Assembly: GCF_030052995.1 (NCBI RefSeq)
Contig: NZ_JASJPW010000001.1
Location: 678,501 to 742,500, forward strand
Direction: 5' to 3'
Length of the DNA stretch: 64,000 nt
From: Gemmobacter sp. 24YEA27
GTDB taxonomy: Bacteria > Pseudomonadota > Alphaproteobacteria > Rhodobacterales > Rhodobacteraceae
The notes beneath the pieces were generated by a model that searched no databases, was not told where the DNA came from, and worked only from the letters and a program-made list of their open reading frames with translations. Below are positions 6,987 through 26,941 of the stretch, one piece after another. The position numbers and the translations under genes are program-made. Each line of letters opens with the position of its first letter. Position 1 is the first letter of the stretch.

Positions 6987-7289
6987 ATGACCCTGATCCC
7001 GACCAGAACCGCAATTGTCAGCCTGCTTGGCGCCGCTGTCATCGCCGCCGCAGCTGCGTGGAAAGCCAGGCCGCAAAGCCCGCCGCCCTCGGCAGTCGCT
7101 GCGGCGGCCCCTGCCGCGCCTGCCGCGCGCCCGCTGGATGCGGCCGGCCAGGCCCGGGTTGCCGCACGCCTGAAGGAGCTGGAGCCGGATTCTGGACGCG
7201 CGCTCGAAAGATGTGAAGCCGCCGCGAATGCCTGGCTGCAGCAAAACGTCGTGATCGGCCGCGAAGAGGCACGGCGTGGCGCGGGCTGA
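6987..7289 (+). CDS. Hypothetical small protein with N-terminal membrane segment
   Basis: 100 residues. Residues 8-24 form a hydrophobic helix (TAIVSLLGAAVIAAAAA), followed by a Pro/Ala-rich linker and a short charged helical C-terminus. This would suit an anchored periplasmic protein. Its stop codon (7287-7289) directly abuts the restored stop of the convergent lldD-like gene (7290-7292), which mildly supports both ends. No family was recognised, and the ribosome site is weak. It could be a chance open frame in GC-rich DNA. Confidence 0.35.
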   Translation: MTLIPTRTAIVSLLGAAVIAAAAAWKARPQSPPPSAVAAAAPAAPAARPLDAAGQARVAARLKELEPDSGRALERCEAAANAWLQQNVVIGREEARRGAG

Positions 7290-8605
7290 TCAGGTTTCGC
7301 CGATCTGGCCGCCGTAATATAGTCGCCCGCTGGCCCCGCCTTCAGCTGATCGACGGAATTCAGGCCCATCAGTTGCAACGTGATGCCGATTTCCGCCGTC
7401 AGCAGGAAAACAGGCGCCCGGCGCCCCAGGTGCCCTCGGCCGCGACGGCCCAGGCAAAGGGCCGCCCCATCATCACCGCATCTGCGCCCAGGGCCAGCGC
7501 CTTCACCACATCGCTGCCACGCCGGAAGCCGCTGTCCACGATCAGCTCGCAGCCCGGGCCAAGCGCTGCGCGCATCGCGGCAACCTGGGCAATCGTCGCA
7601 TGCCGTGATCGAGCTGGCGCCCGCCATGGTTCGACAGCACCACGCCATCGACCCCGCTTTGCCGCGCGATCTCGCCATCGCGCGGGTCAGAAACCCCCTT
7701 GATCACCAGCCGCCCCGGCCAGAGATCGCGCAGGGCTTTCACCTTGTCCCAGGTCAGGTGCGCCCGCCATGGTTCGACAGCACCACGCCATCGACCCGCT
7801 TTGCCGCGCGATCTCGCCATCGCGCGGGTCAGAAACCCCCTTGATCACCAGCCGCCCGGCCAGAGATCGCGCAGGGCTTTCACCTTGTCCCAGGTCAGGT
7901 GCTTGTCGAGCCGTGACGACAGGGCCGAGGCCTGGGCCAGCGCGCCGCGCCCGAATTCGGGCCGCCCCTCGACCAGTTCCACCCCGGAAAGCCGTTGCGC
8001 AACAGATCCAGCGACCAGCGCGGGCGTTTTGCGAATTGCCAGGCCAGGCCCGGCGTGATGTGTTTCACCGCGCGAAAGCCGTTGCGGTTATCGCGTTCCC
8101 GCACCGAGGTGATGGCGGTGTCGACGGTCAGGAAGATCGTCTCGACCCCCGCCGCATGGCAGGCGGCCAGGTAGCTTTCATTCACCGCCGGATCGCGGTC
8201 GAGATAAAGCTGAAACGCCAGATTCTCGCCCAGCTGAGGCGCAAGGCTGGCGATCCCTTTGATCGAGAAGGTCGAGAGCCCGAACGGCACCCCCGCCGCC
8301 TTTGCCGAGAGCCCGACCAGCAGATCTCCGTCGCGGCGATAAAGCCCGAGAAACCCGACCGGCCCGGGAAAGAACGGCAAGGACCAGCGCCGGCCGAGAT
8401 AGGTCGTGCTCAGATCCGGCTGCGGCGCGAGATCCTGCAGCACCCGCTGCGACAGGGCATAGCGGTCAAAACCCATCCGGTTGCGGGCCAGCGTGGTCTC
8501 CGAAAAGGCCCCGCCCTCGATATAATCGGCAAAGATCTTCGGCAGGCGGCGCCAGGCGGCGCGGCGGAAATCCTCGACATTCTGGTAGCGGCGGTCGCGC
8601 GACAT
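7290..8605 (-). pseudogene. FMN-dependent alpha-hydroxy-acid dehydrogenase (LldD family), disrupted
   Basis: LldD/glycolate-oxidase family enzyme oxidising a 2-hydroxy acid to a 2-oxo acid with FMN. Visible family features are IEGGAFSETTLARNR near residue 30, the FMN-barrel strand QLYLDRD, the active-site motif SNHGGRQLDH, and GADAVMMGRPFAWA. The start at 8605 (MSRDRRYQNVEDF) lies 1 bp after the upstream gene's stop. The frame breaks at the CCCC run 7982-7985, near 7600 and near 7411, and possibly near 7320. A 143-bp segment is tandemly repeated (7618-7760 / 7761-7901). Restored, the protein ends LYYGGQIGET at 7290. Last gene of the ABC/HisD-like operon. The substrate is unknown; lactate or imidazolelactate are candidates. 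Confidence 0.8.
7618..7901. repeat. 143/141 bp tandem duplication within the lldD-like gene
   Basis: Copy 1 (7618-7760) and copy 2 (7761-7901) are identical except that copy 2 lacks one C in two homopolymers (cgacccc to cgaccc and gcccc to gccc). Copy 1 keeps the protein frame (DLWPGRLVIKGVSDPRDGE); copy 2 breaks it twice. The pattern suggests two error-bearing reads that were not collapsed during assembly. Confidence 0.95.
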
Positions 8606-8606
8606 G

Positions 8607-9889
8607 TTACGGCTCCGGACGGATGGACTCGAAGAACCGCACCATCCGGTCCTCGCCCGCCAGCGGCCTTGCACCGCAAAGGATCGCCTGGGACAGCCCG
8701 ATGGCCGAGCTTTGCGGGTTATGCCGCCCGGCGCCGGCGCGCAGGTTCATCACCAAAGTCGGGCACAGGAACAGCGCGAGCCGCAAGACCTCCTCCCAAT
8801 CCGCGGGCAGCATGTCATGCTCTGCCAGATGGGCGAGCCAGGGCTTCCAGAAGCGTTCGGCCTTGACCGCCAGCACCGCGTCGCGCAGAACGCCCGGCGC
8901 CCAGTCGCTGTCGATATAAAGGCAGCCATCCGCCAGCCGCGCCGAAACCTGCCAGCGCCCCGGCACCATATCGCTGTCGTAAAGCCAGAGCGGATGGGCG
9001 AGGATATTGTGGAAGGTCGACTTCACCTCGGCCAGCAGCGCGGGCACATGTTCGCCGGCGAAAGCCGGATCGAAAAACGCCAGATGATCAGCGGTCTCGC
9101 CGCGCTCATACCAGACATTGGCGTTATGGGCGTCACCATGCGCGACGATGCCGCCTGCATCCGCCAGCCGCGCGGGGCGAGCCGGGTCCGGGCCGCGTCG
9201 AACAGAACGGCGAGGGGGTGGTCATATTCAATGCCATTGATCACCGGTCGGGCCAGCGCGATCTCATCCCAGGAAGCGCTCAGACCGGCGAGATCAAAAT
9301 CCTGGCCGATATAGAAAGAGGCCAGCCGTCCGCCGGGGTAATGCCCGGTCGCGGGGTCGATCAGGCGTTCGGAAAACAGACGGTGGATCGGTTCGGAGGC
9401 GGATTGATCCGGTGTGATCTCATGCAGGCTGGCCTTTGCCACCGCGAGCAGGTGGTCGTTCAGCGCGCCTTCTGCCGCCAGCGCGCGGGCCATCGCAGGC
9501 GCATCGGGCGCGAGGTCCAGCGCGCGCAGCACATCTGAAAAACGCGGGTCACTGCGGCGCCGATAGACGAGGATCTGCTCGCCCGGGAGCGTCGAAGACA
9601 GGATCGGCTGGTCCACCGGCAGACCGGCGCGGGCAAGGATATCGGCGCGGTAATATTCGCCGCGCATCTCCTCCTCACCCTCTTCCTGATGGAATTTAAA
9701 GAAACACTCGCCCTGCTCGCAGGTGAAGAACCCGTTCAGTGAGTTCAGCGAATACTGGTCGTGATTGATCCGCACATCGCTGGCAGTGATCGCAAAAGTC
9801 TCGCCCAGAAAAGCCGCGAGCATTGCTTCGGCACGGGCCGGATCGGTGGCGGCAGTGGCGCGGATTTCGGCGGTGCGCGACAGCGTCAT
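8607..9889 (-). pseudogene. APH-fold phosphotransferase (aminoglycoside/choline kinase-like), frameshifted
   Basis: Small-molecule kinase of the APH superfamily, about 427 residues when restored. The N-terminal lobe covers residues 1-110, and the catalytic loop HGDAHNANVW is followed by LAFFDPAFAG, the equivalent of the metal-binding Asp segment. The frame breaks near 9175 (run cgcggggcga); a one-base restoration joins FDAARTRLAPR to RLADAGGIVAHGD. Start overlaps the dehydrogenase stop (ATGA at 9886-9889), so the two are translationally coupled. The substrate is unknown. Because the genes around it are importer and dehydrogenases rather than resistance genes, a catabolic kinase is more likely than drug resistance. 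Confidence 0.75.
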
Positions 9890-10884
9890 GGCTGCATCTC
9901 CGGCAGAATAATCGTCTTGGCGCCCATCACTTCGCCCGCAAGATGGCGCGCATAGGCATCGGGAACCGCGTCGAGCGGGATCTCGGCGTCGATCAGCTGT
10001 TCCAGCTGCGGGCCGAGGAGGTCGAGCAGCGCCACCGCCTCGGGCAGTTCCCCCCCGAACGCATGACAGCCGGACAGCCGGATCTCGCGCTCCACCAGCA
10101 GCGTCGGATTCAGGCTGAGCGGGCGCGCGCCGATCCCCACCAGCGCTATCGCCCCGCCGCCGCGCAGGGAGCGGATCAGTTGGTCGATCACCTCGGGGCT
10201 GCCGGTCGCGTCAATCGCATAGCGGGGCGGTGTCGGGCCGAGCTCATCAAGCTGCACGACCTCGCCTCCGAAGGCCGCCGCGGCACGGGTGGCGCGGATC
10301 TGGTTACGATCAACGATGCTGACCGGGTGGCCTTTATGCGCGAGAACAAGCGCCGAAAGCGCGCCAATGGCACCGGCGCCCGTGACCAGAACCGGCGCGC
10401 CGGCTGGTGCGTTCAGAAGATGCGCGGCATGGAGCGCCACCGCCAGCGGCTCGGCCATCGCAAGCAGGCGCGGCTGCAGACCGGCGGGTGCTTTAACCAC
10501 GTTTTTGGCCGGAATAGTGACGTATTCCGCGAAGCCGCCATCGATTACTTCGCCCAGAAACCCAAGCTTTTCGCAGATCTGGCTGAGGCCCTCCAGGCAG
10601 CTGTCACAGCTGCCGCAGGTCACGCGGCTGTCCACCGCAACGGTGTCGCCCCGGGCAACATGGCGCACCCCTGCCCCGACTGCCGTGACCACGCCGGCAA
10701 ACTCATGCCCCGCAACCGAAGGGCTGCGCGAGATCCAGGCCCCGGTTGCAAAATTATGCAGGTCTGATCCGCAGATCCCCGCCGCCGTTACCCTGAGCGT
10801 CACCTCTGCCGGGCCGGGAGGCTCCGGCAAAGCCACGTCTTCGACCCGCAGATCCTTTACGCCATAAAGGCGGACGGCGCGCAT
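9886..10884 (-). CDS. Zinc-dependent medium-chain alcohol/polyol dehydrogenase
   Basis: 332 residues, MDR superfamily, similar in layout to L-threonine, L-idonate and sorbitol dehydrogenases. Catalytic zinc ligands appear as Cys38 (GICGSD) and His60-Glu61 (GHEFAG). The structural zinc lobe is C-G-S-C-D-S-C with a fourth Cys eight residues on (SQIC). The Rossmann motif is GAGAIGALSALVLA. It begins 3 bp after the HisD-like gene and overlaps the phosphotransferase by 4 bp. It probably oxidises a secondary alcohol made or imported by this operon, with NAD(P). The exact substrate cannot be read from sequence. Confidence 0.85.
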   Translation of the reverse strand: MRAVRLYGVKDLRVEDVALPEPPGPAEVTLRVTAAGICGSDLHNFATGAWISRSPSVAGHEFAGVVTAVGAGVRHVARGDTVAVDSRVTCGSCDSCLEGLSQICEKLGFLGEVIDGGFAEYVTIPAKNVVKAPAGLQPRLLAMAEPLAVALHAAHLLNAPAGAPVLVTGAGAIGALSALVLAHKGHPVSIVDRNQIRATRAAAAFGGEVVQLDELGPTPPRYAIDATGSPEVIDQLIRSLRGGGAIALVGIGARPLSLNPTLLVEREIRLSGCHAFGGELPEAVALLDLLGPQLEQLIDAEIPLDAVPDAYARHLAGEVMGAKTIILPEMQP

Positions 10885-10887
10885 ATC

Positions 10888-12212
10888 TCAGCCTTTCAGA
10901 TACTGCTTGCGGATGTCTGAGACCGCATTGGCGTGATTGTCGAATCCCTCATAGCGCGCCAGCGTGCCGGCAGCCTCGGCCAGTTCCGGGAAACCCTTTG
11001 CAGTGACGTAGCCGACCGAGGACCGGCGGATGAAATCGGTCACGGAAAGCGGCCCATAAGTGCGCGCCCCACGGGAGGTCGGCAGCACCGCATTCGGCCC
11101 GAGGCAGAAATTGCCGATAGAGACCGGCGTATATGGCCCCATCAGGATCTCGGCGGCGGCGGTGATTTCTCCCAGATGCTCGAAGGGTTTTTCCGAGAGG
11201 AGCTGGAGATGTTCGGGCGCGTAATCATTGATGAAGGCATAGGCCTCGGCCAGGGTTTCGGTCACGAGGATACCGCCATGGCTGCCGCACAGCACCGCTT
11301 TCGAGAAAGCAACCCGCTGCTCGCTCATCCGCGACCAGTGATCCGGCAGCGCGGCCAGCGCCTCATCGGCGACGCGGCGGGAATTGGTCACGAGCCAGGC
11401 GGAACTGTCGGGTCCATGTTCGGCTTCGATCAGCAGATCAAGCGCGGCGAGGCCGCCATGCACGGTTTCATCGGCGAAAATGATCGATTCCGACGGGCCA
11501 GCGGGCAGACCGGGGTCAATCACGCTCGACAGGAGGCGCTTTGCCGCCACCACCCAGGGGCTGCCCGGGCCAACGATCTTGTGGCAGGGGCGCACGGTCT
11601 CGGTGCCATAAGCCGCCGCCGCCACCGCCTGGGCCCCGCCCGCCTTATAGACCGTCTTCACCCCGGCCAGCCGCGCCGCCACCAGCGTTGCCGCATCGAC
11701 CTTGCCGCCCGGGATCGGCGGCGTGAAGATCGCGATATTCGGCACCCCGCCACCACTGCCGGCACGCCGGTCATCATGGTCACGGACGGAAACGACCCCT
11801 TGCCGCGCGGCACATAGAGCGCGACCGAATCGATGGGGATGAACCGATCCCCGGCAAAGGCGCCTGGACGGATCTCCTTCAGCGTCATCGGCTCGGGCAG
11901 CTGTTCCTCATGGAACGACCGGATGTTCGAAATCCCCAGCTCAATCGCGCGGATCACCTCGGGCTCGACCAGGGTGAAGGCCTCGTCAAACTCGGCTTCG
12001 GTGACTTTCAGCTTGTCCGCCGTCAGCCCCTCGGCCTTGTCGAAACTCACCCCGAACTCGACCAGCGCGGCATCGCCACGGGTTTTCACTGCCTCAATGA
12101 TCGCGGGAACCTTGTCGAGGAAGCCCGACAGATCGGTCTCGGATCGCGCGAAGAGCGCCTCACGTTCGGCCGAAGTCAGATCGGCCAGGATTTTGAAATT
12201 GACCTCAGCCAT
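10888..12212 (-). pseudogene. Histidinol dehydrogenase paralogue (HisD family), frameshifted
   Basis: HisD-family NAD-dependent dehydrogenase, about 440 residues once the deletion in the CCCC run 11745-11748 is restored (AVVAGVPNIAIFTPP). Recognisable features are YVPRGKGSFPS, the nucleotide-side GPGSPWVVAAKR, AGPSES, AEHGPDSS, the catalytic pair in APEHL, and the C-terminal His of NHANAV. Compared with E. coli HisD, two of four zinc ligands look changed (Gln to Glu before AEHGPDS; Asp to Asn in GNFCLGPNAVLPT). There is also a two-residue insertion before AGPSE. Start 12212 has a GAGAGG site. Because it sits with an importer and other dehydrogenases, a catabolic rather than biosynthetic role is inferred. 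HpsN (sulfopropanediol dehydrogenase) is a related alternative. Confidence 0.85.
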
Positions 12213-12232
12213 GGACAGGCCCTCTCGCATAG

Positions 12233-13030
12233 TCATTTGGATTTAAGAAAGATTTCCAGCCCGACGAGCTTGTCGAGCAGCCAGATCGCCGCCAGCGCAA
12301 TCGCGATGAACACCACCGAGACGGCGGCCAGATCAGGCGTGATGATCGAGCGGATGGAGTTGTAGATCAGCACCGGCAAAGTGACGATGCGGGCATCAGT
12401 GAGAAGAAGGCTCACAAGGAATTCGTTCATCGCGAGGATGAACATCAGAAGACCCCCGGTGATCACGCCCGGCATCACGGCAGGCAGCGTGACATGAAGG
12501 AAGGTCTGCACCCGCCCTGCCCCGCAATTCTGCGCCGCAAGCTCAAGATCCGGGTCCAGCAGCACCGCCGAAGACGAGACCGACCAGATGATGAAGGGCA
12601 GATTGATGACCGCGCAGGCCATGCCCACCGGCCAGAGGCTGCCCAGCACATGCCATTCGCCGAAAACCAGCATCAGCCCGATCCCCGATCCGATCAGCGG
12701 CACGGTAAAGGGCAAGAGCAGATAGACCTGGATCGCCGTGGTAAAGCGCAGGCGGAACCGCGACAGGGCAAGACCCGCCAGCGTCCCCACCGGCACCGCT
12801 ACGAGGGTGCAGATCCCGGCAACGATCAGCGAGCGCAGAAAGGCCTGCTGCAAATCGCGGGCCAGCGCGATCTTCTCATACCATTGCAGCGAAAGCCCCT
12901 GCGGCGGAAAGGCGACCATATTGCCGGCGGTCAGGCTCGCCCCCAGCACCACCAGCGTCGGCAGAGACAGCGTGATGATCGAGAACCAGACGAGGCTCCA
13001 GACGGTGATCTTCTGGCTGAAAGACATCAT
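12233..13030 (-). CDS. ABC transporter permease, PotC-like
   Basis: 265 residues with about six membrane helices, starting with an N-terminal TM (VWSLVWFSIITLSLPTLVVLG). The EAA coupling loop is ELAAQNCGAGRVQTFLHVTLPAVMPG. It is the second permease of a spermidine/putrescine/opine-class (type I) importer. It overlaps the PotB-like gene by 4 bp and is followed 20 bp later by the HisD-like gene, so importer and enzymes form one transcription unit. Confidence 0.9.
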   Translation of the reverse strand: MMSFSQKITVWSLVWFSIITLSLPTLVVLGASLTAGNMVAFPPQGLSLQWYEKIALARDLQQAFLRSLIVAGICTLVAVPVGTLAGLALSRFRLRFTTAIQVYLLLPFTVPLIGSGIGLMLVFGEWHVLGSLWPVGMACAVINLPFIIWSVSSSAVLLDPDLELAAQNCGAGRVQTFLHVTLPAVMPGVITGGLLMFILAMNEFLVSLLLTDARIVTLPVLIYNSIRSIITPDLAAVSVVFIAIALAAIWLLDKLVGLEIFLKSK

Positions 13031-13974
13031 TTGCGGCCTCCCATCGCCAGCGTCCCGGCGCCGAAGATCATGAACACCAGCCCCACCAGCACCGACCCCG
13101 CCGCCACCAGCAAAAGCGCCAGGGCCGAACCAAGCCCCTGATCGGCGGTGCGGAAGAACTGGTCATAGATTGCATTGGCGATGAAATCCTGGCCACCGCC
13201 GCCCAGCATCGCCGGCACCGCGAAGTCGGTAAGCGTCAGCGTAAACACCACCAACCCCGCCCCGATCAGCCCCGGCTTCGCCATTGGCAGCAGAACATGC
13301 CACAGAATGCGCGGCCAGCTCGCGCCCAGCGATCCGGCGGCGGTCTCGGTTTCCTCCGGGATTGCGGTCAGTGCCGGCACCAGCAAAAGCACGGCGAAGG
13401 GCAGCATATATTGCACCAGGCCAAAGACCACCGCGCCGTAATTGAACAATAGCCGCATCGGGGTCACGCCGACCAGCGACATTGCCTCATTCACCATGCC
13501 GGAATTCCCGAGGATGATCAGCCAGCCATAGGCGCGCACCACCTGGCCGATGAAAAAAGGCAAAAACAGGGTGATCAGCAGCGCCTTGCGGATCCAGGCC
13601 TTTTTCACCCGCACCAGCGCATAGGCATAGGGAAACGCGAGAATGAGCGTCAGAACCGTGGTCAGCATCGCGGCAGACAGCGACCGCCAGGCCACCGTCA
13701 GATAGGTCGATGACGAAAGCGCCTTGCGGTAATTCTCTGTCGACCAGTCCTCCGACATCAGAAAAGTCGAGGTGTCCAGCGTCCTGAGCGAGGCATCCGC
13801 GATCTGGATCAGCCCCAGCACCAAAAGCCCGACCAGCAAAAGCGCAGGCGCGATGAACAGCCAGCCGGTATGGCGCGACAGACGGCGCGGCCAGACCAGG
13901 TCGGCAATCCGCTCCACCGCGTCCATCAGGCGCCAGTGCAGCGGGTAGCGAAACTCGGGAGAGGGGTTCGGCAT
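13027..13974 (-). CDS. ABC transporter permease, PotB-like
   Basis: 315 residues with about six TM helices, the first at LFIAPALLLVGLLVLGLI. The EAA loop is ETAAGSLGASWPRILWHVLLPMAKPG, which contacts the ATPase. It lies downstream of the binding-protein gene across a 144-bp spacer with two strong hairpins, and overlaps the partner permease by 4 bp. Family is clear; substrate is not. Confidence 0.9.
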   Translation of the reverse strand: MPNPSPEFRYPLHWRLMDAVERIADLVWPRRLSRHTGWLFIAPALLLVGLLVLGLIQIADASLRTLDTSTFLMSEDWSTENYRKALSSSTYLTVAWRSLSAAMLTTVLTLILAFPYAYALVRVKKAWIRKALLITLFLPFFIGQVVRAYGWLIILGNSGMVNEAMSLVGVTPMRLLFNYGAVVFGLVQYMLPFAVLLLVPALTAIPEETETAAGSLGASWPRILWHVLLPMAKPGLIGAGLVVFTLTLTDFAVPAMLGGGGQDFIANAIYDQFFRTADQGLGSALALLLVAAGSVLVGLVFMIFGAGTLAMGGRK

Positions 13975-14000
13975 CGGCTTTATCCGGAAGGGTCACCCCA

Positions 14001-14063
14001 CCCGCCGGGTGAACCACCGGCGGGCAGGCGCGGGATGGGGGGTCCGGGGGGCCTGCCCCCCGG
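14001..14063 (-). terminator. Two intercistronic hairpins between binding protein and permease genes
   Basis: CCCGCCGG (14001-14008) pairs perfectly with CCGGCGGG (14017-14024). CCGGGGGG (14044-14051) pairs with CCCCCCGG (14056-14063) across a 4-base loop. There is no U tract, so these are more likely mRNA-stabilising or partially terminating structures that raise binding-protein level over permeases, as seen in other ABC operons. Confidence 0.6.
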
Positions 14064-14118
14064 CCTGCGCTGACGGTGCCCCCTGGCCTTCAGGCCCGGG
14101 GAAAGCCGTCAGCTCCCG

Positions 14119-15228
14119 TTACCCCTGCATGATCTCTTTGAACTTCGAGAACCATTCGCTCTCATTCTCGACCTGCACCTTGGTCGAGATGCGGATCAGA
14201 TGCGACATCTCTTCCGGCGTATCCGGGTAGGACGGGTCATCCGCCAGATCTTCCGGCGGCGTCAGGCCCGGCACCACGCCCGGCAGACCCAGCCCGTCAC
14301 ACCAGACCTGCTGCGCCTCCTGGCTGATGGCGAAGTTGATATATTCCTTCGCCCAGTACAGCTCATTCTCCGGCAGGCCTTTCGGGATCCAGAGCCCATC
14401 CGTGTCAAACTTCGCGCCCTCTTCCGGCACGGTCCAGGCCAGATCAACGCCGTTCTTCTTCGCTTCACGCGCATTCGTGGAAATGGTGCAGGCGATGTCG
14501 ATCTCACCATTCTGGAACCAGGCGGTGAAATCGGGGTCTTCGCCCAGCAGCGGCTGCTGCTGTTTCACCTGCGTGATGAAATCCCAGGCCGGTTGCATAT
14601 TGCCTGGAATATCCTCAAGCTTGCCGCCGCCGGCCACCTGGGCCGGGAAGTGGAAGCCGATCCCGTCATTGTAAAGCGCGATCCGCCCCTTGAATTTCGG
14701 ATCCAGCAACGCCTTCCACGAGGTCGGCGCGCCATCGGGGAACGCCCCGGGCCGGTAGGCCAGCACATAGACATAGCCATAGGTGTTCACGATCGGATAG
14801 CCGTCGAGCCCCACCGGCTTCGCGAGTTCCGTGGTATTCGCAAGGTTCGCCAGATCTGACAGATCCTCGGTCACACCGCGCAGCGCCGATTTCGTCGCAT
14901 TGGTGGTGGTGTCCCAGTTGATATGGATCGGCGGCACGCGTCCTTGCGCCACGGCGGCCCAGACCTTCGGCTGGATCTCGTTATCCTCGGTCAGATCATG
15001 ACGCACCTGGATGCCGGTCGCGGCGGTGAACGGGTCCGAGACGCCTTTCTTCAGCGCCTCAACCCAGGATCCGCCCCAGGCCCGCACGATGATTTCCGCC
15101 GGTTTCGCCGGCGCGTCCTGCGCCATCAGCCGGCGCGCCGGCAGCGATCCGATCAGCGCCGCTGCCCCCGCAGCAGCCGTTCCGCGCAACAGCGCACGGC
15201 GATTGGGACGATAAACAGGGTTCGACAT
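14119..15228 (-). CDS. Periplasmic substrate-binding protein, PotD-like, Tat signal
   Basis: 369 residues. The N-terminus NRRALLRGTAAAGAAALIG resembles a twin-arginine signal, with likely cleavage after LMAQDAP-type sequence near residue 37. The mature part is an iron/polyamine/opine-type binding protein (family 1 extracellular solute-binding), with AWGGSWVEALKKG near its start and LWIPKGLPENELYWAKEYINFA toward the end. It binds the imported substrate for the PotABC-like importer. Ligand cannot be deduced. Given the HutC-type site in front of the operon, an imidazole or histidine-derived ligand is a hypothesis. Confidence 0.9.
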   Translation of the reverse strand: MSNPVYRPNRRALLRGTAAAGAAALIGSLPARRLMAQDAPAKPAEIIVRAWGGSWVEALKKGVSDPFTAATGIQVRHDLTEDNEIQPKVWAAVAQGRVPPIHINWDTTTNATKSALRGVTEDLSDLANLANTTELAKPVGLDGYPIVNTYGYVYVLAYRPGAFPDGAPTSWKALLDPKFKGRIALYNDGIGFHFPAQVAGGGKLEDIPGNMQPAWDFITQVKQQQPLLGEDPDFTAWFQNGEIDIACTISTNAREAKKNGVDLAWTVPEEGAKFDTDGLWIPKGLPENELYWAKEYINFAISQEAQQVWCDGLGLPGVVPGLTPPEDLADDPSYPDTPEEMSHLIRISTKVQVENESEWFSKFKEIMQG

Positions 15229-15265
15229 GTCTCAGGTCTCCTTGTTGATATGGCTCGCCGCCTGT

Positions 15266-16387
15266 TTAGCGGTCTTTTGCGGGAAAGATCAGCAGGTCTC
15301 TTGCAGTCCAGCCGACTGAAACTGTCGCACCCCGCGCATAGGGCGCATGTTCTGCCGGATCGTGGTGAAAAACCTGAATTGTCGTCTCAAGCGCCGGCAG
15401 GGTGACAAAGTACAAAAGCCGCTCGCCTTCGAAAATCGTGTCACTGACCTGGCCCTCCAGCACGGTATCGCAACCGGAAAGCGCGTCCCCCGGCGCCCCG
15501 ATCCGCACCTGTTCAGCCCGGATCGCGCCCTGGGCCGCAGCGCCCGGCGCAATATCCGCCACCGCCTGGCCCGCGCAATCACTGCCATTCACGGTCAGGC
15601 CCGTTTCTGTCCGCCGGCCCGTCAGAAAACTCGACACGCCGATAAAATGCGCGACGAACGGGTTTGCGGGGCGGCGATACATCTCGACCGGCGAAGCATG
15701 TTGCTGGATCTCGCCCTGGTCCATCACGATGATCTCATCCGAGACCACCAGCGCCTCGCGCTGGTCATGGGTCACATTGATGGTGGTGACGCCCAGCTCT
15801 TTCTGAATGCGGCGAAATTCCAGCTGCATCTCTTCGCGCAGCTTGCGGTCAAGCGCCGCCAGCGGCTCGTCCAGCAGCAAAAGCTCCGGCTCGAATACCA
15901 GCGCCCGCGCGATCGCCACGCGCTGCTGCTGGCCGCCCGAAAGCTCATTGATCCGCCGTTTTGCAAACCCGCCCAGCCGCACCAGGTCAAGATACTGCGC
16001 CACCCTTCCCGGGATCTCACGCGGGTTGAATCGCCGCATCTTCAACGGGAAGGCGACATTTTCCTCGACACTCATATGCGGGAACAGCGCCAGTTTCTGA
16101 AACACCATCCCGACCGAGCGGCGATGCGGCGCCACCGCATCCGCCGGCTTGCCGCCGATCAGGATCTCGCCACGAGTCGGCGTCTGAAAGCCTGCGATCA
16201 TTCGCAAAAGCGTGGTCTTCCCCGATCCCGACGGGCCAAGAATGGTCAGGAAACGCCCGCGCGCAAGGCTGAACCCGGCCTGTTTCACCGCCATCGCGCC
16301 GGTGCCGAAATCCATATCCACATTCCGCGCCACCACTGCGTCAGACGAGCCCGTCCCGCTCATTTCTGCGTTGCTCCTGCCTGACAT
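15266..16387 (-). CDS. ABC transporter ATP-binding protein, PotA-like
   Basis: 373 residues. Walker A GPSGSGKTT at about 51-59, signature LSGGQQQRVAIARAL, Walker B LLLLDEPLAALD and switch His in NVTHDQ, followed by a C-terminal TOBE-type region. It energises the importer encoded just downstream. First gene of the 9.1 kb minus-strand operon; a HutC-like palindrome lies about 60 bp upstream. An alternative start eight codons in (16363) has an AGGAG site and is equally plausible. Confidence 0.93.
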   Translation of the reverse strand: MSGRSNAEMSGTGSSDAVVARNVDMDFGTGAMAVKQAGFSLARGRFLTILGPSGSGKTTLLRMIAGFQTPTRGEILIGGKPADAVAPHRRSVGMVFQKLALFPHMSVEENVAFPLKMRRFNPREIPGRVAQYLDLVRLGGFAKRRINELSGGQQQRVAIARALVFEPELLLLDEPLAALDRKLREEMQLEFRRIQKELGVTTINVTHDQREALVVSDEIIVMDQGEIQQHASPVEMYRRPANPFVAHFIGVSSFLTGRRTETGLTVNGSDCAGQAVADIAPGAAAQGAIRAEQVRIGAPGDALSGCDTVLEGQVSDTIFEGERLLYFVTLPALETTIQVFHHDPAEHAPYARGATVSVGWTARDLLIFPAKDR

Positions 16388-16444
16388 TTCCGTAGGTCCT
16401 CACCCATCGCATCGCGCCTTCCGCTGTCTTTCTTCCCCTTAACC

Positions 16445-16461
16445 GGTATAATGTATATACC
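16445..16461. promoter_or_regulatory. HutC-like operator upstream of the ABC/HisD-like operon
   Basis: Palindrome GGTATA-ATGTA-TATACC containing the 10-mer ATGTATATAC (16451-16460), which is also found at 17364 and 21068 in this window. HutC (GntR family) is known to bind TGTATATACA-type palindromes in hut promoters. Its position, about 60 bp upstream of the PotA-like start, suits repression. Confidence 0.65.
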
Positions 16462-16518
16462 TGAGAAGGGTCTCGGCCCGGATTTTACAGCATCACGCCT
16501 GTATTTCAGGCAGATGGC

Positions 16519-17289
16519 TCAGATCGAGGCCAGATACCCGCCGTCAATACCGATACATTGCCCGGTGATATAGGCCGAAGCGTCCGAGGCGAGGAAAATC
16601 ACCGCGCCAATCAGATCTGCCCCTTCGCCAAAGCGGCGCTGCGGGATCTTGTCGAGCATCGCGCCCGCCCAAGCCTCGTTCTGGTAGAACACTTCCGTCA
16701 TCTCGGTGCGGAAATAGCCCGGCGCGATGGCATTGACCCTTACGCCCCGCCCCGCCCATTCCGATGACAGCGCCCGCGTCATGCCCAAAAGCCCCGATTT
16801 CGACGACCCGTAAGGCGTGGCCGTCGGCACGCCGACATAAGAGGTCAGCGAGCAAAGATTGATGACCGTACCGCGCCCGCGGTCCAGCATGCCCTTTGCC
16901 ACCGCCTGGGTGGTGAAAAACGCACCCTTAAGATTGGTGTCGACGATCTTGTCCCAAAGCGCCTCGGTCACTTCGGTCGAGGGACGGATTTCCTCTACCC
17001 CGGCATTGTTCACAAGGATGTCGATATCCCCTAGGCCCGCAAGCGCGGGTTCGATGCCGCCGACCTCACTCTGATCCATTGCAAGCGCTGTGACCCTGCC
17101 GCCAGCGTCGCGGATCAGCCCGGTGGTTTCCTCAAGCGCAGTGATGCTGCGGGCGGAAATCACCAGATCCGCCCCCGCTTTCGCCAGACCCAGTGCCATG
17201 GCCTGGCCAAGACCCCGGCTGGCGCCAGTCACAAGGGCACGACGGCCGGAAAGAGAGAAGAGCGCGTTGACACTCGACGCGGTATGCAT
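16519..17289 (-). CDS. Short-chain dehydrogenase/reductase (SDR)
   Basis: 256 residues, classical SDR. TGASRGLG nucleotide motif at 21-28, NNAG, a catalytic Ser in LCSLTS, and YGSSK with Tyr160 and Lys164; C-terminal ITGQCIGIDGGY. Similar in layout to gluconate 5-dehydrogenase and 3-oxoacyl reductases; substrate unknown. The start at 17289 (MHTASS) is preferred over an upstream in-frame ATG because AAGGAAG lies about 6 bp before it and the longer form would cover a HutC-like operator. Divergent from the HisC-like gene and probably co-regulated with it. Confidence 0.88.
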   Translation of the reverse strand: MHTASSVNALFSLSGRRALVTGASRGLGQAMALGLAKAGADLVISARSITALEETTGLIRDAGGRVTALAMDQSEVGGIEPALAGLGDIDILVNNAGVEEIRPSTEVTEALWDKIVDTNLKGAFFTTQAVAKGMLDRGRGTVINLCSLTSYVGVPTATPYGSSKSGLLGMTRALSSEWAGRGVRVNAIAPGYFRTEMTEVFYQNEAWAGAMLDKIPQRRFGEGADLIGAVIFLASDASAYITGQCIGIDGGYLASI

Positions 17290-17363
17290 GGCGGGCTTCC
17301 TTTCATTGCCGGCGAGATTAACGATCCCGGCCGGAAGAGAGAACAGCAGACGGCACTCTTTAC

Positions 17364-17374
17364 ATGTATATACA
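17364..17374. promoter_or_regulatory. HutC-like operator between SDR and HisC-like genes
   Basis: ATGTATATAC at 17364-17373 inside the perfect palindrome TGTATATACA (17365-17374), followed by AGAG. It sits centrally in the 146-bp divergent spacer, 75 bp from the SDR start and about 60 bp from the aminotransferase start, so one site could control both. Confidence 0.65.
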
Positions 17375-17435
17375 AGAGACATAGCTTCGGCCTGGCTGTC
17401 AACCGCCCTCGCCCTCCGCTTTCCCCTGAGGCTCC

Positions 17436-18553
17436 ATGACCGGATCTGTCCCGCTTCTGCGCCCCGAGCTGGCGGCGCTCAGCCCCTATAATGCCGGGCT
17501 GACGCCGGCGGCAGTCGCGTCGCGCTCCGGTGTGACACGGGTGGCAAAGCTGGGGTCGAATGAAAATCCCGCTGGCCCGGCACCCGAGGTGATCACGGCT
17601 GTTTGTGAAGCGGCGGGTCGCATCGGGGCCTATCCCGATCCGGAGGGGCGCGATCTGATCGCCGCGCTGGCCGCGTTTTACGGGTTTGATCCCCAGCATT
17701 TCATCCTTGGAAACGGCTCTGAGGATCTGCTGGCGGTGCTGGCCCGCGCGGTTCTGCGGCCCGGAGACGAGGTGGTGACGCTGTTCCCTTCCTTCCCGCT
17801 GCATGAGGATTACGCGCAGGCCATGGGCGCGAAAGTCACGCGGATCGGGCTGACCGCTGCGGGAGAGATAGACCTGCCGGCCCTGCTCGCGGCCGTGTCA
17901 CGGCCGGTGCGCCTTGTGCTTTTCGCTAATCCGATGAACCCGGCCGGCCTCTGGCTTGATGCGGACGGGCTGCGGTCGGTGCTTGCGGCTGGTCATCCCG
18001 ACTCGATCACCTGTCTCGATGAGGCCTATCACGAATATGCCTCGGCCCCCGGTGACGGGCCGGATTATGCCAGCGGCGCGCCCTGGCTTGCCACCCATCC
18101 CGGCCCGCTGGTGATCCTGCGGACCTTCTCCAAGGCCTGGGGTCTTGCGGGTCTGCGGATTGGCTATGCCATGACCAACTCAGCAGACCTGAAGCGCGGC
18201 TTTGATCTTGCCCGCACGCCATTCAATACGAATCTCCTGGCGCAGGTCGCGGCGCGGTCCGCGCTGGATCATACCGCGTCGATGCACCAGGCCGTCAGCC
18301 TTGCGGTCCAGGAACGTGACCGTATGGCAAAGACGCTGCGGTACTGGGGCTGCGGGTTCTGGCCTCGCGCGGCAATTTTCTCTTTGTCGATTGCGGGCGG
18401 CCTGCTGGTCAGGTCGCTGAATCGCTGCTGGATCAGGGTATCATCGTGAAGCCCTGGAAACAGAAGGGTTATGAGAGCTGGCTGCGGGTTTCGACCGGGA
18501 CTGTGGAAGATGGAGACCAGGTGCTCACAGCGCTTGGCGCCCTTCTTGCCTGA
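17436..18553 (+). pseudogene. HisC-like PLP aminotransferase, frameshifted near 3' end
   Basis: Histidinol-phosphate-aminotransferase family (class I/II fold), 372 residues if restored. SNENPAGPAP near residue 41, NPMNPAGLW, DEAYHEY, and the PLP lysine Lys233 in TFSKAWGLAGLRIGY. The frame breaks near 18345; after one base is restored the protein continues GLRVLASRGNFLFVDCG and ends LTALGALLA at 18553. Divergent from the SDR gene across a HutC-like site. It may transaminate histidinol phosphate, or imidazolepyruvate to histidine; the regulatory context favours a catabolic imidazole substrate, but that is inference. Confidence 0.82.
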
Positions 18554-19685: not shown

Positions 19686-21019
19686 TCAGTCCAATACCGC
19701 GCGCAGCGCCGATGCATATGCCGCTGCAACGGGAGCGCGCAAAACATGTTCCCCGCCCTGCACCACATGAGCCCCAAAGGCCCAGACATCGGCGACCCTC
19801 AGGTCCCGGCCAAAGATCCAGCGATCAACGATCTGCCCGGTGGCAAAATCCGGCCCCAGCGGATCGGTCAGGGCCACAAGATCCGCATCTGCACCCGGTG
19901 CGATCTGCGGCTCCGGAACTGACAGGGCCTGCGCCCCGCCCTTTGCTGCCGCCGCAAACAGGGCAGTCCCCACAGAGCCGCCAGCGGTCATAACGTTGCG
20001 TGCCCGCGTGGCCAGTCTTTGCGAATATTCCAGCTGTTTCAGCTCCCCCGCGACAGTGATCTCGACATTGCTGTCAGTGCCGATCCCCCAGGCTCCCCCG
20101 CAGTCAGATAGTCCGATCCCGGAAAGATCCCATCGCCCAGATTGGCCTCGGTCAGCGGGCAAAGGCCAACAACCGCACCCGAAGCCGCAATCGCCCTGGT
20201 CTCGGCCCTGGTCAGATGTGTCGCATGAATAAGGCACCACGAGGGATCAACCGGCGCCTGTGCCAGCAGATATTCCACCGGGCGCGCGCCGCAAAAGCCA
20301 AGGCAATCCTCAACTTCCTTCACCTGTTCGGCGATATGGATATGGAAGGGGCGATCCGGAAAGTCAGCCGCCAGCCGCCGGATTTCAGCCATGCTCGCCG
20401 CGCGCAGGCTATGCGGCGCGATCCCCACCCGATCCTGCTCGCGTCTCAGGGGGGCGCAATGTTCAACCAGCCGCGCGAAAGCGTCATAGCTGTGCAGAAA
20501 GCGCCGTTGCCCCTCTCCCGCCGGGGTCGGGCCAAAGCCACCATGCGCATAGAAGACCGGCAGATGGGTCAGCGCAATGCCGGTATCCCGTGCCGCCGCG
20601 AAGATCCGGCCCGACATCTCGGCCGGATCAGCATAGGGGCGGCCATCCGGCGCATGATGCAGGTAGTGGAACTCTCCCAGCCTTGTATAGCCCGCCTCGA
20701 GCATCTCGACACAGGCCATGGCTGCGATGGCCTGCATCTGATCCGGTGTCAGGCTGAGGGCGAAGCGGTAAATCATCTCGCGCCAGGTCCAGAAACTGTC
20801 CGGACCTGCGCCCCGAAATTCCGTTAACCCCGAAAACCCACGCTGAAACGCATGGCTGTGGAGGTTGGGCATCCCGGGCACCAGAATTTCAGCACAGTGA
20901 TCGCCTGGCCGCGCCGTCACCTGGCTTTCGACCGATACGATCCGCCCTGCCGCTGTCGTCAGCCGGACATCATCGGCCCAGCCGCCCGGCAGCAATGCCT
21001 GTTTTGCATGGATCGCCAT
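19686..21019 (-). pseudogene. hutF: Formimidoylglutamate deiminase HutF, frameshifted
   Basis: Converts N-formimidoyl-L-glutamate to N-formyl-L-glutamate plus ammonia; amidohydrolase fold. Metal-binding HSHAFQR near residue 55, further His in HIHIAEQ, and the family motif GFGPTPAGEGQRRF. The frame breaks in the CCCCC run 20095-20099; one extra base restores LTAGGAWGIGTDSNVEI, the conserved GTDSN-type metal segment, through to AVLD at 19686. Divergent from hutI with a HutC-like operator between them. It pairs functionally with HutG in the five-step histidine pathway. Confidence 0.9.
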
Positions 21020-21067
21020 TCACCCCTCCAGCCCGGTCCGAGAATCCGCTTCCCTTCTTATCTCTTT

Positions 21068-21078
21068 ATGTATATACC
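21068..21078. promoter_or_regulatory. HutC-like operator between hutF and hutI
   Basis: ATGTATATAC at 21068-21077 followed by CTGAAAG, in the 123-bp divergent hutF/hutI spacer. It is the third exact copy of the 10-mer in the window, and its place in the hut promoter region anchors the interpretation of the other two. Confidence 0.7.
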
Positions 21079-21142
21079 TGAAAGAGATCCAGGGGAAGGG
21101 AAAAGCCCATAACGGCCCCGCCCTTTGCACAGGGAGACACAG

Positions 21143-22342
21143 ATGGGTGCCACGCTCTACACCAATGCGCGGATCGTCACCTGCGACGGCGAGGTTGCGC
21201 GCGACCCTGAACCCGGCGCGCTTGAGCTGGAAGTGACCGGCACCCGCATCACCGCGCTTGGCCGGGGGCTGCCGCGTGACGGGCGGCGGATCGTCGATTG
21301 TGGCGGGCGGCTGATGACGCCGGCGCCGATTGACTGCCACACACATCTGGTCTTCGGCGGCGACCGCGCCAATGAATTCGAGATGCGGCTCGACGGGGTT
21401 CCTTACGAGGAGATCGCGCGTCAGGGCGGCGGGATCAAAGCCTCGATGGTGGCCACCCGCGCCCTGTCCGTCGATGCGCTGGTCACGGCCAGCCTGCCGC
21501 GCCTTGATCATCTGCTGGCCGAAGGGGTCTCAACTGTCGAGATCAAATCCGGCTATGGCCTGTCGGTCGGGGCCGAGCTGAACATGCTGCGTGCCGCGCG
21601 GCGGCTGGGGCAGACCCGGCCGGTGCGGATCAGGACGACCTGGCTCGCCGCCCATGCCCTTCCGCCCGAATATGCGGGCAGGGCCGGTGCCTATATCGAC
21701 GAGGTCGCGATTGCCGGGCTTAAGGCCGCCTGTGCCGAAGGGCTGGTCGATGCCGTTGACGCCTTTTGCGAGGGCATTGCCTTCAACACGGCCGAGCTGG
21801 AGCCGCTTTTTGATGCAGCCCGCGCCCTCGGTCTGCCGGTAAAGATTCATTCGGAACAGCTCAGCCATCAGGGCGGCACCGCTTTGGCCGCGCGCTATAA
21901 TGCCCTTTCCGCCGACCATCTGGAACATGCGACGGCGGCAGATGCGCGGCTTATGGCGGAAGCGGGCATGGTGGCCACCTTGCTGCCGGGTGCCTTTTAC
22001 ATGTTGCGCGAAACGGTGATGCCGCCAGTCCAGGCCTTTCGCGACCATGGCGTCCCGATGGCGCTTTCGACTGATTGCAATCCGGGCACTTCACCGCTGA
22101 CCTCGATCCTTATGGTGATGAATATGGGCGCGACGCTCTTTCGCCTTACCGTCGCCGAATGCCTGCTGGCGGTGACCGCCAATGCCGCAAGCGCGCTTGG
22201 TCTGAGCGCCGAGACCGGGCGCCTCAGACCCGGGCTTTCCGCCGATCTGGCGCTTTGGGATGTCACGCGCCCTGCGCAGCTGGTGGCGCGGATCGGCTTT
22301 AACCCGCTTCACGCCCGCATCTTCCAGGGAGACCTGCAATGA
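21143..22342 (+). CDS. hutI: Imidazolonepropionase
   Basis: Hydrolyses 4-imidazolone-5-propanoate to N-formimidoyl-L-glutamate, third step of histidine degradation. Metal motif [20 protein letters not shown] and the late [10 protein letters not shown] segment are typical; about 399 residues. Start 21143 is chosen for its AGGGAG ribosome site; an upstream in-frame ATG at 21125 lacks one. First gene of hutI-H-G-U-D; its stop overlaps hutH (ATGA). Confidence 0.95.
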
Positions 22343-23883
22343 CCGAGACCCTCATCCCCCAAAGCCTGATCCCGGGCGCGGTGCCGCTCTCCCTCCTGCG
22401 CCGGATCTGGTGGGACGGGATCACCCCCGGTCTTGATCCGGTCGCAGATGCCGGCATCAAACGCGCAGCGGCGCGGATCGCCGAAGTCGCCAACGGCAAT
22501 GAGGCGGTCTACGGCGTCAATACGGGCTTTGGCAAACTGGCCTCGATCCGCATTGAGGCCCGCGACGTCGCCACGCTGCAAAGGAACCTGATCCTGTCGC
22601 ATTGCTGTGGGGTGGGCGCGCCTCTGACCGAGCCCGTGGTGCGGCTGATCATGACGCTGAAACTGATGTCGCTGGGGCGCGGAGCCTCGGGCACGCGACC
22701 CGAGGTTGTGGCGCTTTTGGGCGCTATGCTGGCTGAAAACGTAATCCCGGTGATCCCTGAAAAGGGTTCGGTCGGGGCCTCGGGCGATCTGGCTCCGCTG
22801 GCGCATATGGCTGCGGTAATGATCGGTGAGGGTGAGGCGTTTTACCAGGGCACCCGCCTTTCGGGCGCCGAGGCCCTCGCACGCGCCGGGCTGAAACCGG
22901 TGACGCTTGCCGCGAAAGAGGGGCTCGCGCTGATCAACGGCACGCAAGTCTCGACCGCGCTTGCGCTGGCGGGGCTCTTCCGGGCCGAGCGCGCGCTGCG
23001 GGCCGCGATCATCACCGGCGCCCTGTCGACCGATGCCGCGATGGGATCGACCGCGCCCTTTGCCGCAGAAATCCACACCCTGCGCGGCCATCAGGGCCAG
23101 ATCGATGTCGCCCGCGCTCTGCGCGAATTGCTTGAGGGCAGTCAGATCCGCAACAGCCATGTCGAGGGGGATGAACGGGTTCAGGACCCCTATTGCATCC
23201 GCTGCCACCCCCAGGTCGCGGGCGCCGCGCTAGACGTGCTGCGTCAGGCGGCGCGGACGCTTGAGATCGAGGCCAATGCCGCCACCGACAACCCGCTGAT
23301 CCTCTCGGATGGCCAGGTGGTCTCTGGCGGCAATTTCCATGCCGAGCCGGTGGCCTTTGCCGCCGATATGATCGCGCTGACTGTGGCCGAGATCGGTGCA
23401 ATCGCGCAGCGCCGCGTCGCGCTGCTGGTTGACCCCGCGCTGTCTTACGGGCTGCCAGGCTTTCTGACACCGAAGCCGGGGCTGAATTCCGGCATGATGA
23501 TCGCCGAAGTCACAACCGCCGCTTTGATGAGCGAAAACAAGCAGATGGCACATCCGGCGAGCGTGGACAGCACCCCCACCTCCGCCAATCAGGAGGATCA
23601 CGTCTCGATGGCCTGCCACGGCGCCCGCAGGTTGCTCGCCATGACGCAGAACCTGTTCTGGATCATCGGCACCGAGGCGATGATCGCGGCCCAGGGCGTG
23701 CATCTGCGCGGCCCGCTGAAATCCTCGCCCCGGCTTGAAGCCGCAATCGAGGCGATCCGGGCGCGCATTCCGGTGCTTGAAACCGACCGTTTCATGGGAA
23801 CCGACATGGAGGCGGCGGGCGAGCTGATCGCCACCGGCGCGCTCGACCTCGCCGGGGCCGGCCTCTTGCCGGAGGTGGGCTGA
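22339..23883 (+). CDS. hutH: Histidine ammonia-lyase
   Basis: Deaminates L-histidine to urocanate, entry step of the pathway. 514 residues. The Ala-Ser-Gly triad at 147-149 ([12 protein letters not shown]) forms the MIO cofactor; other conserved segments are [15 protein letters not shown] and the [14 protein letters not shown] segment. Overlaps hutI by 4 bp and hutG by 1 bp (TGATG). Confidence 0.97.
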
Positions 23884-24683
23884 TGGACCCGTTCACCCTC
23901 CGGCAGGGCAACAGTCCGATCATTCTTGGCTTTCCCCATGCCGGGTTTTCCTACCCGCATGAGGTTGTTCAGCGCCTGAATGACGAGGGTCGGCGCAGCC
24001 GCGATACCGACTGGCATATTCAGCATCTCTATTCTGATCTGATCCCGGGCCTGACCACGATCACCGGCAATCATTCGCGCTATGTGATCGATCTGAACCG
24101 TGATCCTGAGGGCAACAGCCTCTATCCCGGCCAGACCACGACGGGGCTTATCCCGGAGACCACCTTTGACAACACCCCGATCTGGCGCGAAGGGGCCGGT
24201 CCGACTGCCACCGACATCGCCCATTGGCTGGAAACCGTGCATCGCCCCTATCACGCAGCACTTCAGGCTGAAATCGACCGGGTGAAGGCGCTGCATGGCG
24301 TGGCGATTGTCTATGACTGCCACTCGATCCGCTCGCAAATCCCCTGGCTATTCGAGGGCGTTCTGCCCGATCTGAACATCGGCACCGATGGCGGCGTGAC
24401 CTGTGCGCCGGAATTTGAGGCGGCGGTGGTCGATATCGCCCGGGCCTCTGGCCATTCCTGGGTGCTGAACGGGCGCTTTCGCGGCGGCTGGACCACACGC
24501 CATTATGGCAAGCCCGCGTCAGGCGTTCACACGATCCAGATGGAACTGGCGCAAAGCAGCTATCTCGCGACCGAAACGCTCCCCTTCGCAACGGATCCGC
24601 AGAAAGCCATCCATTTGCGTCTCACCCTGGCGCAAATACTCAAAAAACTTGCCGAACTCGCGCCCGCTTTGGCCAATCGCTGA
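23883..24683 (+). CDS. hutG: N-formylglutamate deformylase
   Basis: Hydrolyses N-formyl-L-glutamate to glutamate and formate, the last step when HutF is present. 266 residues of the FGase family: IILGFPHAGFSYP near the N-terminus, DLNRDPEG, and VYDCHSIRS, likely metal-binding. Its presence with HutF shows the five-step route rather than the formiminoglutamase route. Starts within the hutH stop codon overlap. Confidence 0.93.
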   Translation: MDPFTLRQGNSPIILGFPHAGFSYPHEVVQRLNDEGRRSRDTDWHIQHLYSDLIPGLTTITGNHSRYVIDLNRDPEGNSLYPGQTTTGLIPETTFDNTPIWREGAGPTATDIAHWLETVHRPYHAALQAEIDRVKALHGVAIVYDCHSIRSQIPWLFEGVLPDLNIGTDGGVTCAPEFEAAVVDIARASGHSWVLNGRFRGGWTTRHYGKPASGVHTIQMELAQSSYLATETLPFATDPQKAIHLRLTLAQILKKLAELAPALANR

Positions 24684-24695
24684 GAGGTTCCCGCC

Positions 24696-26390: not shown

Positions 26391-26941
26391 GGGGCATCTA
26401 CCCCGCTGAAGGCCGAAGCTTCCGGCCCTGGAAGAACGGCGGCGGGCAGACGGCGGAGATCGCCATTTCGCCGGTTTCCGCCGGGTCAGAGACGTTTATC
26501 TGGCGCGTCTCCACCGCCTGGGTGGCATCTGACGGTCCGTTTTCCGAATTTCCCGGCATCGACCGCGTGCTCACGGTGATCGAAGGCGGGCCGATGGTGC
26601 TTGCCACCCCGCAAGGCGACCATCGGCTTGACCAGACCAGCCAGCCCTTTGCGTTTTCAGGCGAGGCCCCGGTCTCGGCACGGCTGATCGGGCCGGCATT
26701 GCTGGATTTCAACGTCATGTGCCGTCGCCCCTTGCAGGCCGAGGTCAGCAAGGGCACGCTGCCGGAAGAACATGACTTCGACCTTGCCCTGCTGCTGGCA
26801 CCCGGTGGCGGATTGCAACGGCTTGATCTTGTGGATTTCACGCAGCAGCCGGGTCTTATCCGCTCCCTGTCCGGAACCCTGGCCATCGCGGTCCGCTTTA
26901 CTCAGGCAGGACGGGAGTCTTCGGCGCGCGGCTCGAACTGA
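26387..26941 (+). CDS. hutD: HutD family protein
   Basis: 184 residues of the cupin-like HutD family; [12 protein letters not shown] near the start is diagnostic. It has no established enzymatic step and is thought to help the cell under high histidine-derived nitrogen. Likely GTG start overlapping the hutU stop (GTGA). Its 3' end overlaps the convergent hutC by 40 bp. Confidence 0.88.

Follow-up and report, generated by a model that had tools for sequence, protein, structure and literature searches.

Introduction

The closest described systems to the locus reported here belong to histidine utilisation (Hut) and to sulfonate breakdown. Shared control of hut genes by a HutC-type repressor is known from the HutC regulon (Leyn et al. 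2016, PMC5343134), the main text of which lists hut enzymes, histidine transporters and, in two gammaproteobacteria, the histidine biosynthesis operon, and predicts a Rhizobiales ABC transporter, HisXYZ. The terms histidinol, hisD and imidazol are absent from that main text. A transporter and a regulator in one cluster with a short-chain dehydrogenase (SDR), a medium-chain zinc dehydrogenase (MDR) and a HisD-like enzyme are found in the breakdown of dihydroxypropanesulfonate (DHPS), where, in the available text of PMC11131964, HpsO, HpsP and HpsN represent these three families. Here we describe a window of 64,000 nucleotides (positions 678501-742500 of contig NZ_JASJPW010000001.1 within the 5,082,392-base genome of Gemmobacter sp. 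24YEA27, close relatives of which are Paracoccus sp. IB05 and Pseudogemmobacter) in which a PotABCD-type ABC importer and HisD-like, MDR, kinase-like and LldD-like genes form one operon, at approximately 16387-7290. Together with an adjacent divergent pair of SDR and HisC-like genes this operon, hereafter the module, lies next to the hut genes.

Traces of a comparable cluster have been published. In a tolC mutant of Sinorhizobium meliloti 1021, hisC3 (SMa0387), the ABC genes SMa0391-0396, hisD2 (SMa0398) and a GntR gene (SMa0402) were down 8-24-fold and hutUGH were down 8-12-fold, as were many nitrogen genes, the transporter being termed of "unknown function" in the sections concerned (PMC2912261); SMa0392 is also given as a target of the small RNAs AbcR1/2 in the relevant part of PMC8844928. 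No function is assigned to the module in the consulted excerpts of the open-licence literature, including PMC12542648, PMC12772324, PMC10454721 and PMC4494728.

The original prediction for this window held that the module imports histidine-like compounds, such as histidinol, imidazolelactate or imidazolepyruvate, and converts them to histidine or urocanate. Control by HutC-type operators and linkage to hut genes speak for this proposal, while a plain histidinol dehydrogenase is not borne out by the zinc-ligand positions of the HisD-like enzyme. We propose, with a probability of roughly 0.5, that the module extends the histidine-utilisation regulon by a pathway of uptake and oxidation under HutC repression. 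Its substrate is probably a small alcohol-like compound, possibly a relative of histidine, which would be imported and oxidised.

Results

HutC-type operators at the module and hut genes

HutC-like sites had been predicted at the ABC operon and at the SDR/HisC-like pair, and both were recovered in shuffle and genome scans, together with a third site between hutF and hutI which was not in the earlier list (Table 1). A 14-mer search allowing up to 3 mismatches gave 6 strand matches at these 3 places against 0.81 ± 0.95 in 100 shuffles, and a 10-mer search with 1 mismatch gave 4 matches against 0.06 expected, one of which lay off the module and hut sites, at 44000. In the entire genome the pattern TGTATATACM occurred at exactly three places, these being the promoters of the ABC operon, the SDR/HisC pair and hutF/hutI, and no match to the reversed control pattern was observed. 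The canonical HutC site is TGTA-N2-TACA as given in the available text of PMC12977541. The HutC protein encoded in the window scored 255.3 bits against a TIGR02018 cut-off of 220, so that the repressor is encoded in the same genome. It is very probable from these patterns that HutC controls the module in this genome, and joint control of the ABC operon, the SDR/HisC pair and hut by HutC-type operators is strongly supported in silico.

To place the locus among its relatives, the 79 loci of one genome scan (from the best 80 of 170 relatives) were supplemented by 4 loci on plasmids and 2 stretches of genomes, giving 85 surveyed loci, of which 74 had enough flanking sequence; rows from one genus are not independent. 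The module recurred in Rhizobiales and Rhodobacterales, with HisD in 72 of the 74 loci, SDR in 72, MDR in 63, the kinase in 45 and a HutC-like regulator gene in 49. Hut genes stood beside the module in 16 of the 74 with differing junctions: in Rhizobium and Citreicella the SDR/HisC pair had hutF, with or without hutC, as its neighbour, in Pleomorphomonas the SDR gene adjoined hutI-H-G, and in Tranquillimonas hutU-G lay past the module. An operator with at most 1 mismatch was present 5' of the SDR or ATPase gene in 64 of 84 loci. The same operator was found 5' of other module genes only once (solute-binding protein 0/85, permease 1 0/84, HisD 0/78, MDR 0/65, APH kinase 1/49) and in 29 of 1700 random windows, which may overlap true sites. 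Over 1.80 Mb of loci, in which some genomes are represented twice, 120 of 121 operator matches were within 450 bases 5' of module or hut genes. The predicted link of the module to hut genes under HutC-type operators is thus real and recurrent.

The occurrence of hut genes was also examined at the level of whole genomes. In an even sample of 289 members of the class the importer gene was present in 6 genomes, three of them from one genus, and hutU was found in 6/6 of these versus 82/289 overall. A hutH match was obtained in 32 of 34 module genomes, 31 above the family cut-off and one with sub-cut-off matches alone, leaving 2 with none; hutU was found in 14 of 18 module genomes, which had been picked mostly for lacking the module operator. 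Several module genomes (G062, G084, G070 and others) carried HutH-like genes below the family cut-off, mostly as second copies, which are possibly other ammonia-lyases. On one contig of a Rhizobium metagenome-assembled genome (L074) the SDR-to-HisD part occurred twice, head to head, which is possibly an assembly artefact.

The HutC-like proteins formed two fully supported clades, one of the hut type and one internal to the module, in a tree whose long branches were flagged by the program. Two rows departed from this division, L066 from the module side, which grouped with the hut type, and L028 from an upstream position, which grouped with the module type. A rule that the operator is lost with hut was considered and failed: all 4 genomes without hutU lacked a site with at most 1 mismatch (the three Aureimonas loci had no operator, at 4-5 mismatches, and the Falsirhodobacter site was weakened to 2 mismatches), but so did 11 of the 14 genomes with hutU, most of which had been chosen on that account.

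Among the 30 largest clusters of neighbouring genes (687 other open reading frames of at least 110 residues) none recurred in more than 6 loci, and most reflected synteny within a genus. A D-hydantoinase/dihydropyrimidinase gene flanked the module in L041 (16812-18212), L044 (15419-16906) and L046 (approximately 15421-16905). These were the only such cases in 91 loci searched and all belonged to genomes in which hutU was not found; since they are three of 91 loci and L044 and L046 are near-identical, the link is too little to build on.

A separate HisD-like subfamily

The HisD-like proteins of the module grouped in a single clade (100/100 support) that was distinct from canonical HisD and from an HpsN-like paralogue. 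In E. coli numbering the zinc-ligand positions are Gln259, His262, Asp360 and His419. In 83 of 83 module rows aligned to E. coli HisD, some of them from identical or near-identical genomes, position 259 was Glu and position 360 was Asn, so that two of the four canonical ligand positions are exchanged. His262, His419, Ser237 and Glu414 were retained, as was the catalytic pair Glu326 and His327 in 83/83, while position 367 was Ala in 79 rows and Cys in 4, and Arg133 and Lys135 were present in all 83. A PRGKG loop replaces PGG of HisD. In the Medicago truncatula enzyme, according to the relevant passages of PMC5585171, zinc is held by the residues at the Gln and Asp positions, while the substrate receives a main-chain oxygen from the equivalent of His367. 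With Glu and Asn in their place the pair still consists of an acidic and an amide side chain, and a metal site may be kept.

Glu259 and Asn360 were shared by distant members (51-66% identity; L125-L130) and by ten divergent rows, and among the matches listed they were found in none of 23 canonical HisD loci; Gln and Asp were retained in the 25 canonical sequences compared. The HpsN marker His126 lies in the motif at 122-126 (PMC11382572, in the text available) and was absent from the module proteins, the printed loops of which read PRGKG and then FPSV with no His. The records examined label the subfamily histidinol dehydrogenase, and it scores above the hisD family cut-off. The genome has a separate biosynthetic HisD and HisC. 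Because the metal site is altered, histidinol should not be assumed to be the substrate and is one candidate among others.

A further HisD paralogue in the same genome (L002; G000:C3:46530-47741) carried an HpsN-type SAHM motif and is a possible DHPS or related dehydrogenase. Its neighbours, as named by eye, are presumably a LacI-type regulator and a sugar-type ABC binding protein.

Other module proteins

The solute-binding protein was highly conserved, with 77-83% identity to 11 of 13 aligned relatives and 60 and 68% to the other two. It scored 24.3 bits against the PotD equivalog cut-off of 582, the best solved relatives of its profile were PotD and also binders of agropine and mannopine, among others, and its predicted structure was poor (pLDDT 66).

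The kinase-like protein had no match in Pfam or NCBIfam and none in a defence-family scan. Its earlier assignment as an APH kinase, based on one motif, received no help from these family searches but is supported by the fold, which among the fold families compared is that of APH, choline and methylthioribose kinases; the best rows, among proteins such as PsiK, methylthioribose kinase and APH kinases, had only approximately 7-14% identity. An invariant HGDAHNAN motif and Asp274, which we take to be catalytic, would fit a putative phosphoryl transfer.

For the LldD-like protein the nearest solved relatives were mandelate dehydrogenases, and the structure of a close homologue of the SDR has been solved (4j2h). 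The HisC-like protein of the close relative L037 was barely over the TIGR01141 cut-off (278.5 vs 276.55), and the split copy in the window fell below it.

Gene organisation and split genes

The original description was confirmed for the order and coordinates of the genes, for the spacers of 37 and 144 bases, for the divergent arrangement of SDR and HisC and for the neighbouring hut genes (hutF, I, H, G, U, D and C at 19686-27666). Gaps of 1-37 bp had been described in the operon apart from the 144-base spacer; the 37-base spacer was confirmed, and several junctions proved to be 4-base overlaps instead of gaps. The 144-base spacer folded with z = -2.5, 2 of 200 shuffles being equally good. The names hutI, hutG and hutD were assigned by recognition.

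Table 1. Positions of module, operator and hut features in the window.
Feature	Position	Strand	Remark
LldD-like FMN (flavin mononucleotide) 2-hydroxy-acid dehydrogenase	7290..8605	-	several frames, end approximate
Kinase-like protein, APH / methylthioribose kinase fold	8613..9889	-	split over two frames
MDR zinc dehydrogenase (threonine/sorbitol dehydrogenase-like)	9886..10884	-	
HisD-like dehydrogenase, separate subfamily	10888..12236	-	split over two frames
ABC permease 2	12233..13030	-	
ABC permease 1	13027..13974	-	
G+C-rich 144-base spacer	13975..14118	-	stem-loop-forming potential
Solute-binding protein, PotD/agropine/mannopine-type family	14119..15228	-	
ABC importer ATPase, PotA-like	15266..16387	-	first gene of operon
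HutC-type operator, 5' of ABC operon	16450..16463		14-mer/10-mer scans, genome scan
SDR dehydrogenase	16519..17289	-	start set by likeness to relatives, listed open reading frame longer
HutC-type operator, between SDR and HisC-like genes	17363..17376		14-mer/10-mer scans, genome scan
HisC-like aminotransferase	17436..18553	+	split over two frames
hutF	19686..21019	-	split over two frames
HutC-type operator, between hutF and hutI	21067..21080		14-mer scan, genome scan; third in genome
hutI, hutH, hutG, hutU, hutD	21125..26941	+	
HutC repressor (TIGR02018)	26902..27666	-	

The HisD-like, APH-like, LldD-like and HisC-like genes and hutF were each spread over at least two frames in the window, which had gone unremarked in the original prediction. 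Compared with the close relatives L037 and L029, in which intact orthologues of the split genes were present, most single-base gaps were bases missing from the window, often in homopolymers, and they were densest at 6.7-7.6 kb; positions 6685-7761, where they are unusually frequent, are a low-quality stretch of the assembly. Many paired gaps made the more distant L031 uninformative on this point. Since the gaps are mostly missing single bases, often in homopolymers, and also affect hutF while the relatives are intact, the split genes of the module and hutF are probably products of assembly error rather than decay, and we consider it unlikely that they are decayed pseudogenes.

Outside the module, positions 2883-6497 on the minus strand encode a large protein that may be a surface adhesin. 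It has a long run of repeats (13 protein letters, not shown) as well as repeats of Ig-like appearance.

Discussion

In the pathway that we propose, the importer would take up a histidine-related compound, namely a three-carbon imidazolyl alcohol, amino alcohol or hydroxy acid, and the kinase may phosphorylate this substrate or an early intermediate. The SDR, MDR and HisD-like enzymes would oxidise the alcohol end, the HisD-like enzyme from primary alcohol to carboxylate by analogy with the same families in DHPS breakdown; the LldD-like enzyme would convert a 2-hydroxy acid to a 2-oxo acid, which the HisC-like enzyme may transaminate to histidine. HutH would then yield urocanate, which would release HutC and raise expression of both pathways. 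The HisD-, HisC- and LldD-like genes fit such a chain for a three-carbon acid or alcohol. The joint fall of the S. meliloti cluster and hutUGH in the tolC mutant also counts in favour of the proposal. That the module feeds histidine breakdown by way of an imidazolyl alcohol or hydroxy acid is a proposal on which we find the balance even. More tentatively, the HisD-like proteins may be a third catalytic branch of the HisD family (metal site E-H-N-H versus Q-H-D-H) which, with a dedicated kinase and dehydrogenases, would make up an undescribed alphaproteobacterial route for an imidazolyl alcohol into histidine breakdown under one HutC switch.

Several observations weigh against this pathway, besides the two exchanged zinc-ligand positions. 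The LldD-like gene was present in only 24 of 74 loci and the HisC-like gene in 31. No operator with at most 1 mismatch was found 5' of the SDR or ATPase gene in 20 of 84 loci, 11 of these 20 being in genomes that possess hutU. Of the 18 module genomes searched for hutU, four had none (three of Aureimonas and that of Falsirhodobacter sp. alg1), and since 2 of 34 also had no hutH match, an obligatory Hut outlet is disfavoured. The S. meliloti genes SMa0387-SMa0402 (hisC3, ABC, hisD2, GntR) are apparently the same cluster as the module of locus L026, the match resting on gene order and names, not sequence, and the co-change of these genes with hut may be due to NtrC rather than HutC because many nitrogen genes fall too. 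The L026 cluster also differs in being on pSymA and in having its own HutC-like gene, with no hut genes within the 24 kb fetched.

The core genes were also encountered in other surroundings. The kinase-like protein was found in 11 of 386 genomes of the class, and 8 further loci were fetched (L154, L156 and L159-L164, leaving out G211 and G292; L164 is from the genome already surveyed as L036). A HisD-like gene was near the kinase in 8/8 and an SDR in 6/8, with L155, L157 and L158 having a HisD-like gene without a kinase nearby. Only L162 and L164 were of PotABCD type. Four loci of one genus (L154, L159, L160, L161) combined kinase, SDR and HisD-like genes with an SsuA/NMT1-type binding protein, accompanied by an amidase in L154, L159 and L160, and in L156 and L163, from small genomes of one family, HisD-like and kinase genes stood beside glutamine-amidotransferase-like and threonine ammonia-lyase genes. 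No hut gene was seen in the six loci that are not of PotABCD type. A scan of L159-L164 found the operator in L164 only, so that it was missing even from the PotABCD-type module of L162. As these core genes occur with another importer and without the operator, the chemistry of the core may extend beyond histidine, which again counts against the proposed pathway. A urease alpha gene was seen approximately 8 kb from the variant cluster of L159.

It could therefore be argued that the kinase, the HisD-like enzyme and usually the SDR are a portable cassette that acts on some other alcohol or diol containing nitrogen. In Rhizobiales and Rhodobacterales the cassette would have come under HutC for the sake of the nitrogen or glutamate released, and not because the substrate is an imidazole. 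The constant pairing of kinase and HisD-like genes, the hut-free loci, the absence of operators from L159-L161 and L163 and the four module genomes without hutU, three of which have the flanking hydantoinase-type gene (two near-identical), all agree with such a cassette. It is a serious but rather doubtful explanation, as the module is found physically linked to hut genes and HisC time and again, and shares its operators with hut promoters across many genera. Salvage for histidine biosynthesis, in which leaked imidazoleglycerol, imidazoleacetol or histidinol would be imported and turned into histidine to serve both catabolism and protein synthesis, appears unlikely. The HisD-like, HisC-like and kinase genes do resemble the last biosynthetic steps, and the module persists in the four genomes without hutU, but three of these four lack a HisC-like gene in the module, a biosynthetic pathway would not be expected to be repressed by HutC and released by urocanate, and the genome has biosynthetic HisD and HisC of its own beside a module enzyme with an altered metal site.

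Two other assignments were rejected. A polyamine importer beside unrelated oxidoreductases is very improbable: there is family similarity to PotA and PotD, but that to PotD is weak, with an equivalog score far below the cut-off, agropine and mannopine binders were among the best solved relatives, and the hut linkage would be left unexplained. A pathway for DHPS or another sulfonate we regard as hardly credible, although it shares its three dehydrogenase families with HpsO, HpsP and HpsN (PMC11131964, in the text available) and a sulfonate-type binding-protein family came just below cut-off in the L154 and L160 variants. The module has another HisD subfamily, lacking the His126 of HpsN and differing at two zinc-ligand positions, it has additional kinase, LldD-like and HisC-like genes, and its hut linkage is not accounted for by a sulfonate; no desulfonation genes were noticed among recurrent neighbours, for which no dedicated search was made.

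If a HutC-repressed pathway for a relative of histidine is indeed what the module encodes, the histidine-utilisation regulon would be wider than described, and alphaproteobacteria from soil, from the sea and from association with plants would take up and oxidise a second nutrient under its control. As the HisD-like subfamily is named histidinol dehydrogenase and scores above the family cut-off, many genomes may carry a wrong label. The system is directly testable in Sinorhizobium meliloti, for the hisC3/hisD2 cluster of which expression changes have been published without a known substrate.

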